Both the position numbers and the translations under genes were made by a program. Positions 3,982-15,644 of a DNA stretch of 35,478 nucleotides are shown here, piece by piece (the first letter of the stretch is position 1; every line of letters starts with the position of its first letter). The notes beneath the pieces were generated by a model. The model saw only the letters and a list, made by a program, of their open reading frames with translations, did not search any database and was not told where the DNA came from. The stretch is taken from assembly GCA_001788925.1 (NCBI GenBank), contig MFXS01000022.1, positions 5,654 through 41,131 on the forward strand, given 5' to 3'. The stretch comes from Candidatus Peribacteria bacterium RIFCSPHIGHO2_01_FULL_55_13. Its GTDB lineage: Bacteria > Patescibacteriota > Gracilibacteria > Peribacterales > Peribacteraceae.

Positions 3982-5334
3982 ATGTCTGAATCGGGCACTG
4001 AATCGCTTTCACCACAAACTGCGCCCAAACGCAGAGGCCCATTGCGATACATTCCGCGACAAATATCTCTTCGAACGGCTGCTCTCATCGGAACGCTTCT
4101 CTGTTCCTATTTTGCCTACGAAAGCATTCATATTCGCAGAAGCCAGGTACACAAAAGGGCAATCGACCTCCTCCATTCCACAAAAGACACCATGGTAGCA
4201 ACGAAAGATTCTGTGCCTTGGACCCCATGGAATTACCGTACGTATCACCGATACCAACAAAAGCTCGGTCGCACCGATGTCCCATTTTTTATGGAATTGC
4301 CACGAGTGAGTGATATTGGTGTCTTTAAGGAGAAGCTCGGAATGGGTGATGAACGATTGGAGTGCATTTATGACCTGCCGCAGAGCGCCGATGATGCATT
4401 TTTAGACAACATGCATATTGAGGAATTAACAACGCTCCTTTTAGTGGACCTCCGTGGGACGAAGGTCACTACAGCATCCATGGAAAAGTTACGCAGCTTA
4501 CATCGTCTTCGTTACCTGTATCTGGATGATACTGTCATTGGAGACGGGGCGATTCCTGTACTTCAGAGTTGTACGAATTTGGAAGTCGTGAGTGCGCAGA
4601 GAGCGGGAATCACGGACAAATCACTGGCCGCTTTTTCGGAGTTGCGCCAACTGCGCGATCTGGTCATCAGTGGAAATTCGGGCATTACGCCGTCCGGTCT
4701 GAAAACATGCCTTTCACAATTGCAAGATCTTTATTCCCTGCAAGTTTCCGGCATACCGCTTGGCGATGATGCCTTTTCTGCGCTTCCGGATCTTCAGGAT
4801 CTTTCCTTCCTGGATGCAAGTGATACAGGCGTGAGCGATGGAGTGTTGCCCTCTATCGGAGCGGCAGGAGAAGATCTGGCTTTACTCTACCTGCGGAATA
4901 ATCATATCACAGGAGAGGGACTCGATTCCCTTCAGGGTAATACGCAGTTATGGGGCGTTGATCTGAGCGGGAATCCGATCAATGAAGCTGGGGTAAAACA
5001 CCTTGCTCACATGCCCAACCTCAAAAACCTGTCTCTCAATCATGTACCCGTCACCCCGGAAATGCTGCAGGCGTTGGAACAGTGCGAGATGTTGGATTCT
5101 CTTGAGCTGAGACACTCTCCTGGCGTTACGGATGCAACAGTCCGTATTGTCGTTCAATATCCGTCATTACAACGTTTGGATATCACCGGTACCCAAGTAA
5201 CAGCAGAAGGCATTCGCTATCTTTGCGAGCATGCAGATCATTTAGAATGCATCATACTTGAGCGTAGTAGAATTACCGATGAACAAGAGGACGAACTCCT
5301 CGAGAAAACTAAAGTACATTTTTCAAGACGATAG
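3982..5334 (+). CDS. Leucine-rich-repeat protein with N-terminal TM segment
   Basis: Repeated ~24-aa LRRs (LRYLYLDDTVIGDGAIPVLQSCTNLEVVSAQRAGITDKSLAAFSELRQLRDLVIS...), hydrophobic segment near N-terminus (TAALIGTLLCSYFAY). Confidence 0.85.
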   Translation: MSESGTESLSPQTAPKRRGPLRYIPRQISLRTAALIGTLLCSYFAYESIHIRRSQVHKRAIDLLHSTKDTMVATKDSVPWTPWNYRTYHRYQQKLGRTDVPFFMELPRVSDIGVFKEKLGMGDERLECIYDLPQSADDAFLDNMHIEELTTLLLVDLRGTKVTTASMEKLRSLHRLRYLYLDDTVIGDGAIPVLQSCTNLEVVSAQRAGITDKSLAAFSELRQLRDLVISGNSGITPSGLKTCLSQLQDLYSLQVSGIPLGDDAFSALPDLQDLSFLDASDTGVSDGVLPSIGAAGEDLALLYLRNNHITGEGLDSLQGNTQLWGVDLSGNPINEAGVKHLAHMPNLKNLSLNHVPVTPEMLQALEQCEMLDSLELRHSPGVTDATVRIVVQYPSLQRLDITGTQVTAEGIRYLCEHADHLECIILERSRITDEQEDELLEKTKVHFSRR

Positions 5335-8722: not shown

Positions 8723-9745
8723 ATGGCATCCGGACTCGAGCAACTCTTTTCCGCCGCAGCAAAGCTGGGCGCATCGGATATTCACCTGGCTGTCGGCAGC
8801 CCCGTCGTCTTCCGTATCGACGGTGTACTTGCAGAGCAGGGCAAGAAGGCGCTCACCGCGGCTGATGTGGAGCGCGCGATCAAAGGAATCCTCGGCGCGG
8901 AGCGTTTTAAGGAATTCGAGCGCGCCCGCGAGATGGACGCGGCGTTTGCCGTCGGCGCAATGCGCTTCCGTGTGAACTGTCACTTTGAAAAAGAAGTTCC
9001 GGGCCTTGCCGCCCGTATCATTCCCCAGGAAATCCCCTCGGTGGAGGACATCGGCCTCACGGCGGTTGCCACCACGCTTTGCAATCTCAGTGACGGTCTC
9101 GTGCTCTTCACCGGCCCCACGGGCTCGGGAAAATCCACGTCACTCGCTGCCCTCCTCAACCGCATCAACCAGGAACGTTCTGAGCACATCGTCACGCTGG
9201 AAGATCCCGTCGAATTCCTCTTCCCCCAGGGCAAAGGTATCGTCCGCCAGCGTCAGTATGGTTCCGACTTTCTCTCCTTCCCGGATGCGCTCAAGCACGT
9301 CTTGCGCCAGGATCCGGACATCGTCATGGTCGGTGAAATGCGCGACCTGGAAACCATCGCCGCAGCCCTCACGATCGCCGAAACCGGCCACCTCGTCTTC
9401 GCCACACTCCACACGCCCAATGCTATCCAGACGGTGGACCGCATCGTCGATGTCTTCCCTCCGCACCAGCAGCAGCAAGTCCGCATCCAGCTCTCGCTCT
9501 CGCTCAAGGCCATTGTGGCCCAGCGGCTGCTCCCCAAAGTAGAAGGCGGCAGAGTCGCCCAGCGCGAAGTCCTCGTGATGAACCCGGCCGTGGGCCACAT
9601 CATCCGCGACAACCGCTCGCAGGAACTGAAGTCTGTCCTCCAGACCGGGCGCGACACGGGGATGACCACCTTCGAAGTAGATGCGAAGAAGCTGTATAAA
9701 GAAGGGGTGATTAGTAAGGAGACGTTTGAGTGGGCGAGGCTGTAG
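8723..9745 (+). CDS. pilT: PilT-like type IV pilus retraction ATPase
   Basis: Walker A GPTGSGKSTS, Asp box HIVTLEDPVEFLF, Walker B IVMVGEMRDLETI, His box HLVFATLHTPNAIQTVDRIVDVFP. Confidence 0.93.
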   Translation: MASGLEQLFSAAAKLGASDIHLAVGSPVVFRIDGVLAEQGKKALTAADVERAIKGILGAERFKEFERAREMDAAFAVGAMRFRVNCHFEKEVPGLAARIIPQEIPSVEDIGLTAVATTLCNLSDGLVLFTGPTGSGKSTSLAALLNRINQERSEHIVTLEDPVEFLFPQGKGIVRQRQYGSDFLSFPDALKHVLRQDPDIVMVGEMRDLETIAAALTIAETGHLVFATLHTPNAIQTVDRIVDVFPPHQQQQVRIQLSLSLKAIVAQRLLPKVEGGRVAQREVLVMNPAVGHIIRDNRSQELKSVLQTGRDTGMTTFEVDAKKLYKEGVISKETFEWARL

Positions 9746-9881: not shown

Positions 9882-12143
9882 ATGACCCAGCTCCCCGCCG
9901 CCATCGAACAATATCTGTTGGAGTGCGGATTTACCTCAACAGAGATCCTCATTCTCAAGCACCTGCTTGCGGGGGGCTCCATGACGCTCCGGGAACTGGC
10001 CGCCAAAACAGGAAAGAGCACGGGGGTGCTCGATAGCGCGAGCAAGAAGCTTCTGAAGAAGGGGATTCTCGGAAAGGAACTCGTCAATGACTCTCCCAAA
10101 CTCACACTTTCCTCGCTCGAGGCCGTGGTGGCATGGGTGCATGAAGACAGCGAGCGGACACGCAATTTTATGGAGCGGCGGGAAAAGGACCTGCAATCCT
10201 TCGTGGATTCTCTTTCCCCCAACATGAGCCGGGCCGATATTGAGCACTTCGAAAAAATGGATGGCCTGGAACAGGCCTATGAAAAATTGCTGGAGGGATG
10301 TAACGGCGTCATGCTCCACTTCCTCCCCGTTCGCCATACCGAGGTGGAGGACCCGCTCCGGGATTTCCTCGTCCAGTTCTTCCGCGTTCGCCGGCGTCAG
10401 GGAATCATCACACGCGTCATCGCACACGACACCCCCCTCGGCCGCCGCTATCAGTCCAGAGATCCCTTCGAGTACCGCCAGACGCTTCTCGTTCCCGAAT
10501 CCGTCTACGCCTTTAATACGGAAAAAGTCATCGCGGGGGATTGGGTCGGCACCATCAATCATGCAGATGCTAAAGCCCTGATCATCCGCAGTCCCGAAAT
10601 GGCGCATACCGAACGCGCGATGTTCGAGGCCATCTGGAAACAGGAGATGGCGAAGCAGAAGGAGAAGGGGGCGTCTGTACCGGCGGCAGTACCAAAAGAA
10701 GAAGAGATGAAGACGAGGGTGGTGTCAGCGGCGAGGGAGTTTTTCTTGAGTAAGCGTAGTCTTGCGGCTTTTGGAATGTTTCTGGTCATTGCTCTAGGGT
10801 CGACATTTGCTATGTATAAGTATAATGAGAATTTGAATCTTAAACGCGTACAAGAAAAATTGCTCTCGATAGCTGCAACCGGTGCCCTGCAGTTCTCGCC
10901 CAAGGATATAGAGGTAATCAGAGATTCAGATGATGCTCAAAAACCTCAGTATGGAAAAATAATTCTTCAAATGAATCAAATACGGAATCAAAATGAAGGA
11001 GTCCAGTACATGTATATTTTGAGACCGACAGCCGAGCAAGATGTGTGGGAATTTGTCGCTGATGCTGATTCGTTAGATCTGAATGCTAAAAAAGATTTGA
11101 ATAAGGACGGAGTTGTTGACGAAGCAGATCACCTTTCTCCGCCGGGAGAAAAATACGAGGCCAAAGATTTTCCTGCGCAATACCGTCGTTCATTACTTGA
11201 ACCGGTCATTATTAGCGCATCTCAGGATCAATGGGGTTATCTTATTGCGGCTTGGGCTCCGATACGAAATGAACAAGGTGAAACAATAGCAATTCTGGGA
11301 GTCGACAAGTTTGCGAGTGATGTAACGAAGCTGGCAGCCGACACTTTTAAGCCCTTTGCATTTTTCTTAGGAATTTTTCTTTGTTTGATAATTGCTAGAT
11401 TTGCAGCACATAACAGATCCTTGATAAAAGAATTCTTTAGGCTTACACAAACAAAGGCGGCCATTGTTACTATAATTTTTATTTTAATTATAAGCGCCGC
11501 AGCCACGTCTTGTATGTATTGGTACACGCTGAGTTTGCTAAGGGAGCAATTAGGTCAGCGTTTAAGATCAATTGCATCAGCTACTGCCGCACAAATTAAT
11601 GCACAAGATCTTGAACCTTTACGGTTTGCTCGAGACATGAAGCGAGATGAATACCAGCGCGTGTTCCGTATCTTGAATAAAATGCGTGAAGAAAATCCAG
11701 ATATACTTTGGGCATATGTCATGAGACCTATTGAAGGCAATATCTGGGAATTTGTTGTTGATGCTGATTCTAATTTTGATTTGCCTCCATCCCAAGATTT
11801 GAATCTTGACGGTTTAATCACGGAAGACGAGGAAAATGTTGCACCAGGCGTTCGATACAATGTTGATGTGGCACCAGAGATAGTCAGCGCGCTTTCTGAA
11901 GCTGTTGCGACCGACGATTTTTATTCTGATCAATGGGGGACTTATATTTCTGGTTATGCACCAATTTTGAATGAAAAAAATGAGCCTGTAGCTATTGTAG
12001 GCTTTGATATGTCTGTAGATACTGTTCTATCTGTCACAAACAAAAAATTTATTGCGATAGGGGGGATATTACTTCTTGCTTTTGCAATACTTTTGCTTTT
12101 TCTCTTTTCTCGACAGAAGCTGGTATTAATATCCAAATTTTGA
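9882..12143 (+). CDS. Membrane-tethered TrmB-type transcriptional regulator fused to two tandem TM/extracytoplasmic EF-hand sensor modules
   Basis: N-terminal winged-helix (LRELAAKTGKSTGVLDSASKKLLKKGIL) and TrmB-like middle domain; then two modules TM-[..YMYILRPTAEQDVWEFVADADSLDLNAKKDLNKDGVVDEAD..]-TM and TM-[..WAYVMRPIEGNIWEFVVDADSNFDLPPSQDLNLDGLITEDE..]-TM. Confidence 0.85.
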   Translation: MTQLPAAIEQYLLECGFTSTEILILKHLLAGGSMTLRELAAKTGKSTGVLDSASKKLLKKGILGKELVNDSPKLTLSSLEAVVAWVHEDSERTRNFMERREKDLQSFVDSLSPNMSRADIEHFEKMDGLEQAYEKLLEGCNGVMLHFLPVRHTEVEDPLRDFLVQFFRVRRRQGIITRVIAHDTPLGRRYQSRDPFEYRQTLLVPESVYAFNTEKVIAGDWVGTINHADAKALIIRSPEMAHTERAMFEAIWKQEMAKQKEKGASVPAAVPKEEEMKTRVVSAAREFFLSKRSLAAFGMFLVIALGSTFAMYKYNENLNLKRVQEKLLSIAATGALQFSPKDIEVIRDSDDAQKPQYGKIILQMNQIRNQNEGVQYMYILRPTAEQDVWEFVADADSLDLNAKKDLNKDGVVDEADHLSPPGEKYEAKDFPAQYRRSLLEPVIISASQDQWGYLIAAWAPIRNEQGETIAILGVDKFASDVTKLAADTFKPFAFFLGIFLCLIIARFAAHNRSLIKEFFRLTQTKAAIVTIIFILIISAAATSCMYWYTLSLLREQLGQRLRSIASATAAQINAQDLEPLRFARDMKRDEYQRVFRILNKMREENPDILWAYVMRPIEGNIWEFVVDADSNFDLPPSQDLNLDGLITEDEENVAPGVRYNVDVAPEIVSALSEAVATDDFYSDQWGTYISGYAPILNEKNEPVAIVGFDMSVDTVLSVTNKKFIAIGGILLLAFAILLLFLFSRQKLVLISKF

Positions 12144-12186
12144 GGGGGAGGGAGTGGTAGCAATAAATCCATATTTCCTCTATAAT

Positions 12187-13626
12187 ATGTGGATGCATGT
12201 TAAAAATTACTTCAAGCGAATATCAGGCCACGGAAGAGTTCTTGTGGCCCTAATGTTATGTGCAGCATTGGCAGCTGCTATTACTTATATTTTGTTCGTT
12301 CAAACACAACAAATTTTAAAACAAAGACTCCAAGAAAGAATTGTTGCAATTGTTTCCACAATTGCAAATGAGATTGATGCTGCTGATGTCGACAGAACCA
12401 CGCAAGAATCAGATTCGAATTCAGTTAGCTTAAAAAAATTGGTACATCAACTTGAGAATCTCAGAGCTGCCAATGAAAATATTCAATATGCATACATAAT
12501 GAGGAGGACATCTGAACCCAATACTTTTGAGTTTGTTGCAGATGCCGACTCTTTAGACTCTTTTGAAGAATTAGATGCGAACCAAGATGGGGAGGTTTCA
12601 GATGATGAAGTGGCTCCATTGCCAGGAGATCCTTTTGATGTTTCTGACTATCCAGCATTAAGAGATGAGGCATTTTACTATCCTGTAGCTGCTGATGAAT
12701 TGGAAAAAGATCAATGGTCAGTTCAGCTTTCTGCTTATGCTCCAATTTTGGATAGCAGGAATGACGCCATAGCAATTATAGGCATCGACGTTGTTCTTGA
12801 TGATTTTAATGAGAGGACCCAAGCAATGCTACGGCCTTTTCTACTCCTTATTCTTTTCTTGATCTTTTTGCTTTCCCTTTTAACCACAACGCTTGTTCGA
12901 ATTTATAATGAACGAGTTGAAGCAGTTAAAGAGTTGGACCGTCAAAAAGATGAATTACTTGGAATAGTTAGCCATCAATTGGCTACACCTATTTCTGCTC
13001 TTAAATGGGACTTTGAAATGCTTCTTGATGGGGACATTGGCGAGGTAAATAAAGAACAGAAGGATTTCTTCCAAAAACTCCAAGGAGTTACGGCACACCT
13101 TTCCGACCTTGTTTCCATGATCTTGGATGTGTCACGTATTCAACTTGGTCGCATAAAGGTGGACCGCACGGAATTGGATCTAAATGTTTTCTTTGGGGAA
13201 GTATTGAATATCATGCAATCAAAAGCTAAAGAGCATAAGGTGAAGCTTACACAAGCTGTGCAAGAAAAAATGAGCACAGGCAATCTCGATAAGCGTTTGA
13301 TGTTAATGATTACAGAAAACCTCTTGAGCAACGCTATCAAGTACACTCCAGAAGGAGGTAAGGTGAAGCTCGAGGTAAAAGTGGAAAGTGGCGCTCTGAA
13401 GTTCTCTGTCAGTGATACCGGTTGTGGTATTCCAAAACAGGATCAGGACAAAATTTTCGGAAAGCTCTTCCGTGCCAGCAACGTACGCAACGTGGATGGT
13501 AATGGATTTGGTTTGTATGTTGTAAAAGGAGCTGTTGAGGCACAAGGTGGAACTATTTCATTTAGGAGCCAAGAAAATAAAGGAACCACCTTTAGTGTTG
13601 AGTTGCCCTTGCCCCAAAAGAGTTAA
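12187..13626 (+). CDS. Sensor histidine kinase with N-terminal EF-hand-bearing extracytoplasmic sensor module
   Basis: TM-sensor-TM (YAYIMRRTSEPNTFEFVADADSL...DANQDGEVSDDE), H box IVSHQLATPISALKWD, N box ENLLSNAIKYTP, G1 DTGCGIP, G2 GNGFGLYVVK. ORF track start is GTG 12154; ATGs at 12187 and 12193 look better. Confidence 0.92.
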   Translation: MWMHVKNYFKRISGHGRVLVALMLCAALAAAITYILFVQTQQILKQRLQERIVAIVSTIANEIDAADVDRTTQESDSNSVSLKKLVHQLENLRAANENIQYAYIMRRTSEPNTFEFVADADSLDSFEELDANQDGEVSDDEVAPLPGDPFDVSDYPALRDEAFYYPVAADELEKDQWSVQLSAYAPILDSRNDAIAIIGIDVVLDDFNERTQAMLRPFLLLILFLIFLLSLLTTTLVRIYNERVEAVKELDRQKDELLGIVSHQLATPISALKWDFEMLLDGDIGEVNKEQKDFFQKLQGVTAHLSDLVSMILDVSRIQLGRIKVDRTELDLNVFFGEVLNIMQSKAKEHKVKLTQAVQEKMSTGNLDKRLMLMITENLLSNAIKYTPEGGKVKLEVKVESGALKFSVSDTGCGIPKQDQDKIFGKLFRASNVRNVDGNGFGLYVVKGAVEAQGGTISFRSQENKGTTFSVELPLPQKS

Positions 13627-13631
13627 CAAAT

Positions 13632-14522
13632 TTACGACACTAAATAGACACCAATAATCATAACAATAAGTGCCATATATTTTTTCCATATATTCATAAA
13701 GATTTTTGTGTCGTATTTAATCTTAAAGATTGAAAAAACAATCAGTGCAATTAAAAATGTGAAGCCTGGCATTGTTGTTTCGACAGCGGCTACTAAGGAT
13801 GGTGATCCTTCTTTAATTGATTTTTGGGCAAAAGCCAAAGCAATTAAGTTGGTTATTTCTATTAAAACAAATAACTTAATGGAAGAACTTAAGAGCCCTC
13901 CTCTTGTACCCAAAGTAGATCTCACCCTTTTAAAGACAAGCGGAAATACCCCGATCATAATTATGCCACTTGTCATCAGTGTGAAACCGACAATAAAGGA
14001 ACATTGATCGTAGACTGAGTCTTGGATTAAATATGAAATTGCTTGCAATACAGAGGCGCCAATCATGCATAAAAAAGCTGAAACTCTTGTTTCAAGATTA
14101 TGATCTGAAAGTAACATTAAGTTTGAAGCAAAAATAAGAATAACAATTCCAATATATTGATTGGGGGTGAAGATTCTTCCAAAAATAAAATAACTAAGAA
14201 TAGGAAGAATAGCTGGAATAATGTTCCAATAGGCTGCAACAATTCCTGCATTAGTATTTGCCAATGCATTGAAATAGAGCAGCTGACTCACCTGTATTAA
14301 GGCACCAGCACTAATAGCCAATAATAAAATAGAATATGTAGGCCATTGCCAGCCCACAAAGGGCAAAATAAAGGGCAGTGGTATTAATACGACGAGAGAG
14401 GCGAGCGCACTTGTAATTACGCCAATCCAAGGTTTTTCAAAGATTTCATCAATACAATACTCATCAAGCAGGTGCACTACGGCAAAGAACACAGCTGCCG
14501 TTAGAGCATACAAAACCCACAT
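13632..14522 (-). CDS. EamA/DMT-superfamily transporter
   Basis: About 10 hydrophobic helices; NALANTNAGIVAAYWNIIPAILPILSYFIFGRIFTPNQYIGIVILIFASNLML typical of EamA repeats. Confidence 0.82.
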   Translation of the reverse strand: MWVLYALTAAVFFAVVHLLDEYCIDEIFEKPWIGVITSALASLVVLIPLPFILPFVGWQWPTYSILLLAISAGALIQVSQLLYFNALANTNAGIVAAYWNIIPAILPILSYFIFGRIFTPNQYIGIVILIFASNLMLLSDHNLETRVSAFLCMIGASVLQAISYLIQDSVYDQCSFIVGFTLMTSGIIMIGVFPLVFKRVRSTLGTRGGLLSSSIKLFVLIEITNLIALAFAQKSIKEGSPSLVAAVETTMPGFTFLIALIVFSIFKIKYDTKIFMNIWKKYMALIVMIIGVYLVS

Positions 14523-14597: not shown

Positions 14598-15644
14598 TCA
14601 AAAACTGTGTTGAGTTCCGCAATGCACCGACCCATACCCCCAGATCAACTCACTACAATCGATGCCAATCACTTTCCTGTCTGGGAAGCAGTTACCCAAT
14701 ACTCTCAAAGCTTCAGCATCCGAATCCTGTTTATAGGTAGGCACCAGCACCACCCCATTTGCGATGTAGAAGTTCGCGTAGCTTGCGGCCATTCGACGCC
14801 CCTCGACGGTGAACTCCTTCGGCATGGGAAGAGTGAGGACGGAAAGAGGCGTACCCTCTTCATCTTTCATCATCTTTAGGCGTTCGAGGTTCTCCTGCAG
14901 CGGCGCATAGTTTGCGTCTTTCTTGTTCTCTTCCACCACCGTTACCACGGTATTTTTCCCCACGAAGCGCGTGATGTCATCCACATGCCCCGTAGTGTCA
15001 TCCCCCTCAATACCAGCAGAGAGCCAGAGGATATTTGTAACGCCCAGGAAATCGCGGAGCTTCTGCTCAATCTGCTCTTTATTCATGTTCGGGTTGCGGT
15101 CGGGGCTGAGGAGGCAGCTTTCCGTGGTAATCAGCGTGCCGGTACCATTCACGTCAATAGAACCGCCTTCGAGCACAATACCGGCATCAAACCGGGGGTA
15201 TTTTTGCAGCGGCATCTTGTCCGGCACTTCATTTCCCGGGAGCAGATCATCGTACTTGTTACCGTACGCGTTGTAGATCCACTTGGAATATGCCACTTCA
15301 CGGTTTTTCCCCTCTCCTTTCACGAGAAAAATCGGACCATAGTCGCGGATCCAGACGTCGCCGGATTCGATGTGGTGGATCTCCAGATTCCCGGTTCCCG
15401 CTTTTCCGATCTTCTTAACCGCACGGGCTTCCACATCCTTGCTGGGTACGAGAAGATGGACCTTCTCATGGGGCGTCAGCGCCGCGATCATCTGTGTGAA
15501 TGCTTCTTCCGCTCCCTCCAGGTGTCCTGCCCATGTTTCTAGATTGTAGGGCCAGGAGATCCATGTTCCCTCATGCGGCTCCCATTCGGCAGGCATGCGG
15601 TAGCCGAGGGCGGCGGGAGAGGAGGGGGTGAAGGGGGATTTCAT
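14598..15644 (-). CDS. aguA: Agmatine deiminase
   Basis: PAEWEPHEGTWISWP, VWIRDYGPIFLV, EGGSIDVNGTGTLITTESCLL, GDDTTGHVDDITRFV, and catalytic-Cys C-terminus GYGSVHCGTQ. Confidence 0.95.
   Translation of the reverse strand: MKSPFTPSSPAALGYRMPAEWEPHEGTWISWPYNLETWAGHLEGAEEAFTQMIAALTPHEKVHLLVPSKDVEARAVKKIGKAGTGNLEIHHIESGDVWIRDYGPIFLVKGEGKNREVAYSKWIYNAYGNKYDDLLPGNEVPDKMPLQKYPRFDAGIVLEGGSIDVNGTGTLITTESCLLSPDRNPNMNKEQIEQKLRDFLGVTNILWLSAGIEGDDTTGHVDDITRFVGKNTVVTVVEENKKDANYAPLQENLERLKMMKDEEGTPLSVLTLPMPKEFTVEGRRMAASYANFYIANGVVLVPTYKQDSDAEALRVLGNCFPDRKVIGIDCSELIWGYGSVHCGTQHSF

Follow-up and report, generated by a model that had tools for sequence, protein, structure and literature searches.

The analysed stretch of DNA (hereafter the window; 35,478 nucleotides from Candidatus Peribacteria bacterium RIFCSPHIGHO2_01_FULL_55_13) encodes two adjacent membrane receptors, a TrmB-type regulator and a histidine kinase, built on the same sensor module (Table 1). 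On balance we favour the view that both belong to a single, ancestral sensory locus of Peribacteria and act as functionally linked branches, with signals that may overlap without having to be the same. Most likely, the locus combines an orphan kinase with a membrane regulator of the one-component type, and coupling between regulator and kinase is plausible. The TrmB fusion would be a membrane-anchored one-component regulator, with a cytoplasmic DNA-binding part followed by two tandem extracytoplasmic single-Cache modules, and the kinase, with a single Cache module from the same family, would be the second receptor. All three modules are predicted to form a Cache pocket, each with an EF-hand-like loop as a putative Ca2+ site. 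Ligand binding would change the TrmB dimer and so alter DNA binding at its targets, and the kinase would pass phosphate to one stand-alone receiver encoded elsewhere.

Gene calls are mechanical ORFs throughout. Both reading frames reported by the first-pass annotation were found where it had placed them; its 40-nt intergenic gap, on the other hand, depends on the start codon chosen for the kinase, with 10 nt to the GTG at 12154 and 43 nt to the ATG at 12187. No terminator-like site was found on the + strand between the TrmB and kinase genes. The window also encodes a 450-aa leucine-rich-repeat protein (3982-5334, +) and a peptidyl-arginine/agmatine deiminase family protein (14598-15644, −; PF04371, 2e-116), the latter belonging to the syntenic block in some relatives. 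The presence of this deiminase and of an EamA transporter beside the pair might hint at amine signals.

Table 1. Features of the receptor locus and its conserved neighbours (positions in the window).
Feature	Position	Strand	Remarks
PilT-type ATPase (T2SSE), conserved neighbour upstream, same direction	8723..9745	+	PF00437 3.7e-48
TrmB-type regulator with two transmembrane Cache modules (fusion)	9882..12143	+	753 aa ORF
Cytoplasmic TrmB-like part: winged helix, coiled coil, alpha/beta (PLD-like) domain	9882..10736	+	Pfam, Foldseek
Module T1: TM helix, Cache domain, TM helix	10749..11417	+	aa 290-512
EF-hand-like loop of T1, DLNKDGVVDEAD	11094..11129	+	
Module T2: TM helix, Cache domain, TM helix	11442..12113	+	aa 521-744
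EF-hand-like loop of T2, DLNLDGLITEDE	11796..11831	+	
Membrane sensor histidine kinase	12154..13626	+	490 aa; start GTG 12154, or ATG 12187 or 12193
Module K: TM helix, Cache domain, TM helix	12220..12891	+	aa 23-246; AlphaFold, Foldseek
EF-hand-like loop of K, DANQDGEVSDDE	12574..12609	+	Pfam EF-hand_5 weak
Kinase core: HisKA (SHQLATP H-box), HATPase_c (N, G1, G2 boxes), no HAMP	12892..13623	+	
EamA-family transporter, conserved convergent neighbour	13632..14522	−	PF00892

The three modules are homologous, as had been proposed from their shared motifs. T1, T2 and K align end to end at 31-34% identity (BLASTP E about 1e-27 to 1e-38) with 38 invariant columns, and their local alignment scores lie 38-55 SD over shuffled controls, which rules out chance similarity. 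A profile built from the three recovered these copies and no others in the 1.17-Mb genome. Two hydrophobic helices bracket each module, giving four transmembrane helices in the fusion and two in the kinase. Structural comparison agreed with the Cache/PAS-like fold that the first-pass annotation expected. Module K was modelled by AlphaFold2 on its own from an alignment of 68 modules (mean pLDDT 92.7), and its best Foldseek matches in the PDB were Cache sensors, among them those of KinD (E 7e-6), DctB and CitA and of the chemoreceptors McpU, TlpQ and Tlp3. The Cache fold of T1 and T2 was seen within the model of the full fusion. These models identify the module as an extracytoplasmic Cache domain, alpha/beta after a long N-terminal helix, with a DxNxDG loop inserted. 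No Pfam Cache model scored above its cut-off: sCache_3_2 (1.6e-4) and dCache_1 (9.8e-4) were matched in a few members, and sCache_3_3 reached 14.3 bits against a cut-off of 28.8 in the window protein. Residues D108, W166, P175, D190 and Y92 are conserved across all module classes, and R95 is also strongly conserved.

The inserted loop, DxNxDGx[VI]xxx[DE], is present in all three window modules. Its strict form (D-x-[DN]-x-[DN]-G-x-[ILV]-x3-[DE]) occurs in 119 of 172 family modules, against 0.05 expected from shuffles, and in 30 of 39 paired kinases. Among the module-bearing kinases of a second clade (see below), 39/43 have the strict loop and 43/43 a relaxed pattern. Judged from sequence, the loop probably binds Ca2+, which could have a structural role or act as a co-signal.

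The N-terminal part of the fusion is assigned the TrmB/TrmBL2 fold from its predicted structure. The full model (pLDDT 83.3) combines a winged helix with a long helix and an alpha/beta domain; Foldseek matched this part to TrmBL2 (5bqt, E 1.4e-10) and TrmB (3qph, E 6e-8) over ~250 columns. Pfam HTH_24 is over its cut-off in the window fusion, and Pfam TrmB (PF01978) gives 17.0-18.7 bits against a cut-off of 25.6; 11 of 15 homologues match PF01978 at E <= 0.01, the best at 9.6e-7. Neither the window protein nor its homologues gave a Pfam match to the sugar/effector-binding domain PF11495. TrmB proteins of the family carry one to four modules and the kinases carry one. Several variants were seen. 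Two loci have three TrmB-Cache genes in tandem arrays (L102:1558-7012 and L110:8349-13323), and G045 encodes a second TrmB-clade protein (L196:8730-10373) in which a C-terminal 7-TM region replaces the Cache modules. This region has no similarity to the 8-9 TM sensors of some kinases described below, and a replacement sensor common to TrmB and kinase was therefore rejected. Broken versions also occur, with TrmB and module on two separate ORFs (L078, L096), a kinase fragment (L192) and a truncated fusion (L194).

The kinase has recognisable catalytic domains (Pfam HATPase_c 8e-29, HisKA 5.6e-9). In a FastTree phylogeny, in which support is moderate, it falls in a 48-member clade (support 0.83) apart from other kinases. 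The key H, N, G1 and G2 residues are invariant in all 48 members; in the H-box of the kinase, Gln follows His, departing from the usual acidic residue. About 43 kinases outside this clade also bear the module. These include a second clade of ~475-aa proteins (L081, L089, L093, L160 and others) that never have TrmB upstream and that in some genomes lie beside pilT.

Pairing of the two genes was counted in ~110 loci with classified ORFs. A TrmB-clade gene lies upstream on the same strand in 38 of the 48 clade kinases, the window included. The remainder comprise one kinase with TrmB in opposite orientation, four at contig ends and five that lack TrmB (G003, G017, G066, G074 and a second copy in G049). 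Thus 38/44 testable clade members have TrmB upstream, compared with 0/46 other kinases, and the gene pair is conserved. Orthologous kinases are accordingly not found routinely without the TrmB fusion, whereas in the second module-bearing clade TrmB is never upstream. The gap is <100 nt in ten pairs and 0.5-4.4 kb in the rest, and because most relatives have their genes this far apart, co-transcription is not general. At the level of whole genomes, 43 have both genes, 7 the kinase only, 14 TrmB only and 11 neither (Fisher test, P = 0.008, uncorrected for phylogeny), a co-occurrence of only moderate significance. Contig ends lie just downstream in nine of the 14 TrmB-only genomes, and a fragment of the kinase survives in a tenth (G056); in four (G024, G038, G045, G065) the kinase is missing although the contig does not break nearby.

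The order ligA, pilT, trmB, kinase, eamA is kept across much of the locus. Adjacency is weaker as evidence because part of it reflects this conserved syntenic block. Two receptors that merely happen to lie in a slowly rearranging block would give a similar picture: ligA, pilT and eamA are likewise conserved neighbours, 0.5-4.4 kb gaps are common and the presence/absence association is moderate. However, the pair is kept without PilT in 13 loci and with neither PilT nor EamA nearby in seven, and TrmB is never upstream of the other kinases that bear the module. We therefore regard incidental adjacency as very improbable, and return to two linked receptors.

The first-pass annotation further suggested that one extracellular signal is read by both proteins, or that they assemble as heteromers through the shared modules. 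Neither idea was borne out. In the module tree, the modules of paired kinases, other kinases, first TrmB positions and last TrmB positions fall largely in separate groups, and from this phylogeny T1, T2 and the kinase module are taken to be separate ancient lineages. TrmB and kinase modules of one genome are never nearest neighbours in the tree; their nearest neighbours are the orthologous modules of other genomes, and recent duplication or homogenisation between partners within a genome was rejected on these grounds. Five kinase modules do group with TrmB modules, which points to one old exchange. Furthermore, the module is not common to both partners in 10 of the 38 pairs. Seven have a kinase with an 8-9 TM sensor instead of the module (five changes by parsimony), and in three (G021, G041 and G058) TrmB is soluble and lacks a sensor. 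Pairing therefore outlasts sensor sharing. Mixed TrmB-kinase receptor assemblies reading one extracellular signal would fit the homology of the modules, their common core residues and topology, and the neighbouring position of the genes. Set against this are the separate ancient clades, the lack of homogenisation, the ten pairs that do not share the module and the unequal module numbers (one to four in TrmB, one in the kinase), and we consider such assemblies improbable. These results leave an identical signal or obligatory heteromers unsupported, and the two partners probably need not read the same signal.

As the first-pass annotation had stated, the window contains no response regulator; six are encoded on other contigs of the genome, all of them single receivers of 123-134 aa. 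No OmpR output domain was found in this genome, which thus has no DNA-binding response regulator. A cognate response regulator beside the kinase was ruled out, since no receiver gene adjoins the pair, and the few receivers in related loci lie kilobases away. By a count of long receivers, an OmpR-type regulator is missing in 29 of 50 paired-kinase genomes, and a search for the OmpR output domain returned nearly the same set. An association of the kinase clade with OmpR regulators was rejected (21/29 vs 10/15, P = 1.0). The kinase therefore acts via a stand-alone receiver, via TrmB or via an unrecognised target.

The second of these routes would make a single pathway of what we treat as two branches, with the kinase working through TrmB by phosphorylation, direct contact or a stand-alone receiver. 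The missing DNA-binding response regulators speak for it, as do the three soluble, sensorless TrmB proteins. Each is followed directly by a kinase that bears the module (gap of 90 nt in G021 and 17 nt in G041, overlap in G058) and so supplies the sole transmembrane sensor at its locus. These three belong to one clade, however, and therefore represent one event. Moreover, TrmB has neither a receiver domain nor a known phospho-acceptor motif, most TrmB proteins have sensors of their own, and the kinase persists in four genomes from which the TrmB gene is absent (G003, G017, G066 and G074). We judge this single pathway rather unlikely. It is a little more doubtful still that, in genomes without DNA-binding response regulators, the histidine kinase uses the neighbouring membrane-bound TrmB as its transcriptional output. 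If true, the pair would resemble a two-component system, but with an output protein that is a receptor in its own right and with sensors that can be lost from, or swapped on, either partner. Two linked receptors remain our preferred reading.

The arrangement of the module in TrmB and kinase is a trait of the Peribacteria lineage. The module is present in 62-63 of 75 genomes of the family and in 65 of 360 of the class, all but three of the latter in the same family; in a sample of the phylum it was found in 20 of 389 genomes, 14 of them in the same family. The named relatives are Peribacteria/Peregrinibacteria MAGs, with contig breaks. A distant relative of the module was seen in a Thermincola (Firmicutes) MAG (L072:7896-9287).

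Patescibacteria have few regulators, and genetics is lacking in most lineages. The locus, which bears on how they sense hosts or surroundings, adds a receptor pair conserved in one order, and its natural series (one to four modules, no module, swapped sensors) is suited to testing the coupling of regulator and kinase. In the open-licence papers searched, we found neither a TrmB-Cache fusion nor its partnership with a kinase, no report of TrmB together with Peribacteria and no EF-hand combined with Cache kinase sensors.

Among known systems, the TrmB family (Pyrococcus TrmB and TrmBL2) shares the winged helix, coiled coil and alpha/beta domain with the fusion (Foldseek 5bqt, 3qph). The window protein differs in its tandem transmembrane Cache modules, in scoring below the Pfam TrmB cut-off and in leaving PF11495 unmatched; in a review of the family the word 'membrane' is absent (PMC4158304). 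ToxR and CadC work like the fusion in that an N-terminal cytoplasmic DNA-binding part and a C-terminal extracytoplasmic sensor form one polypeptide, whereas the fusion belongs to another DNA-binding family, is polytopic, has two Cache modules and comes from a genome without Trans_reg_C. ArnR/ArnR1 of Sulfolobus is a membrane-bound N-terminal HTH regulator that is phosphorylated by a kinase and controls type IV pilus-type structures (PMC6396743). By description, ArnR differs in being archaeal, with HAMP, a different sensor and a Ser/Thr kinase. Known partners of Cache domains are kinases, chemoreceptors and HTH/LytTR factors (PMC4822843). The kinases CitA and DcuS (single-Cache), KinD and DctB have, as here, a Cache fold between two TM helices followed by HisKA/HATPase_c; the window kinase is set apart from them by its EF-hand-like insert, the lack of HAMP and of an adjacent response regulator, and its TrmB gene partner.
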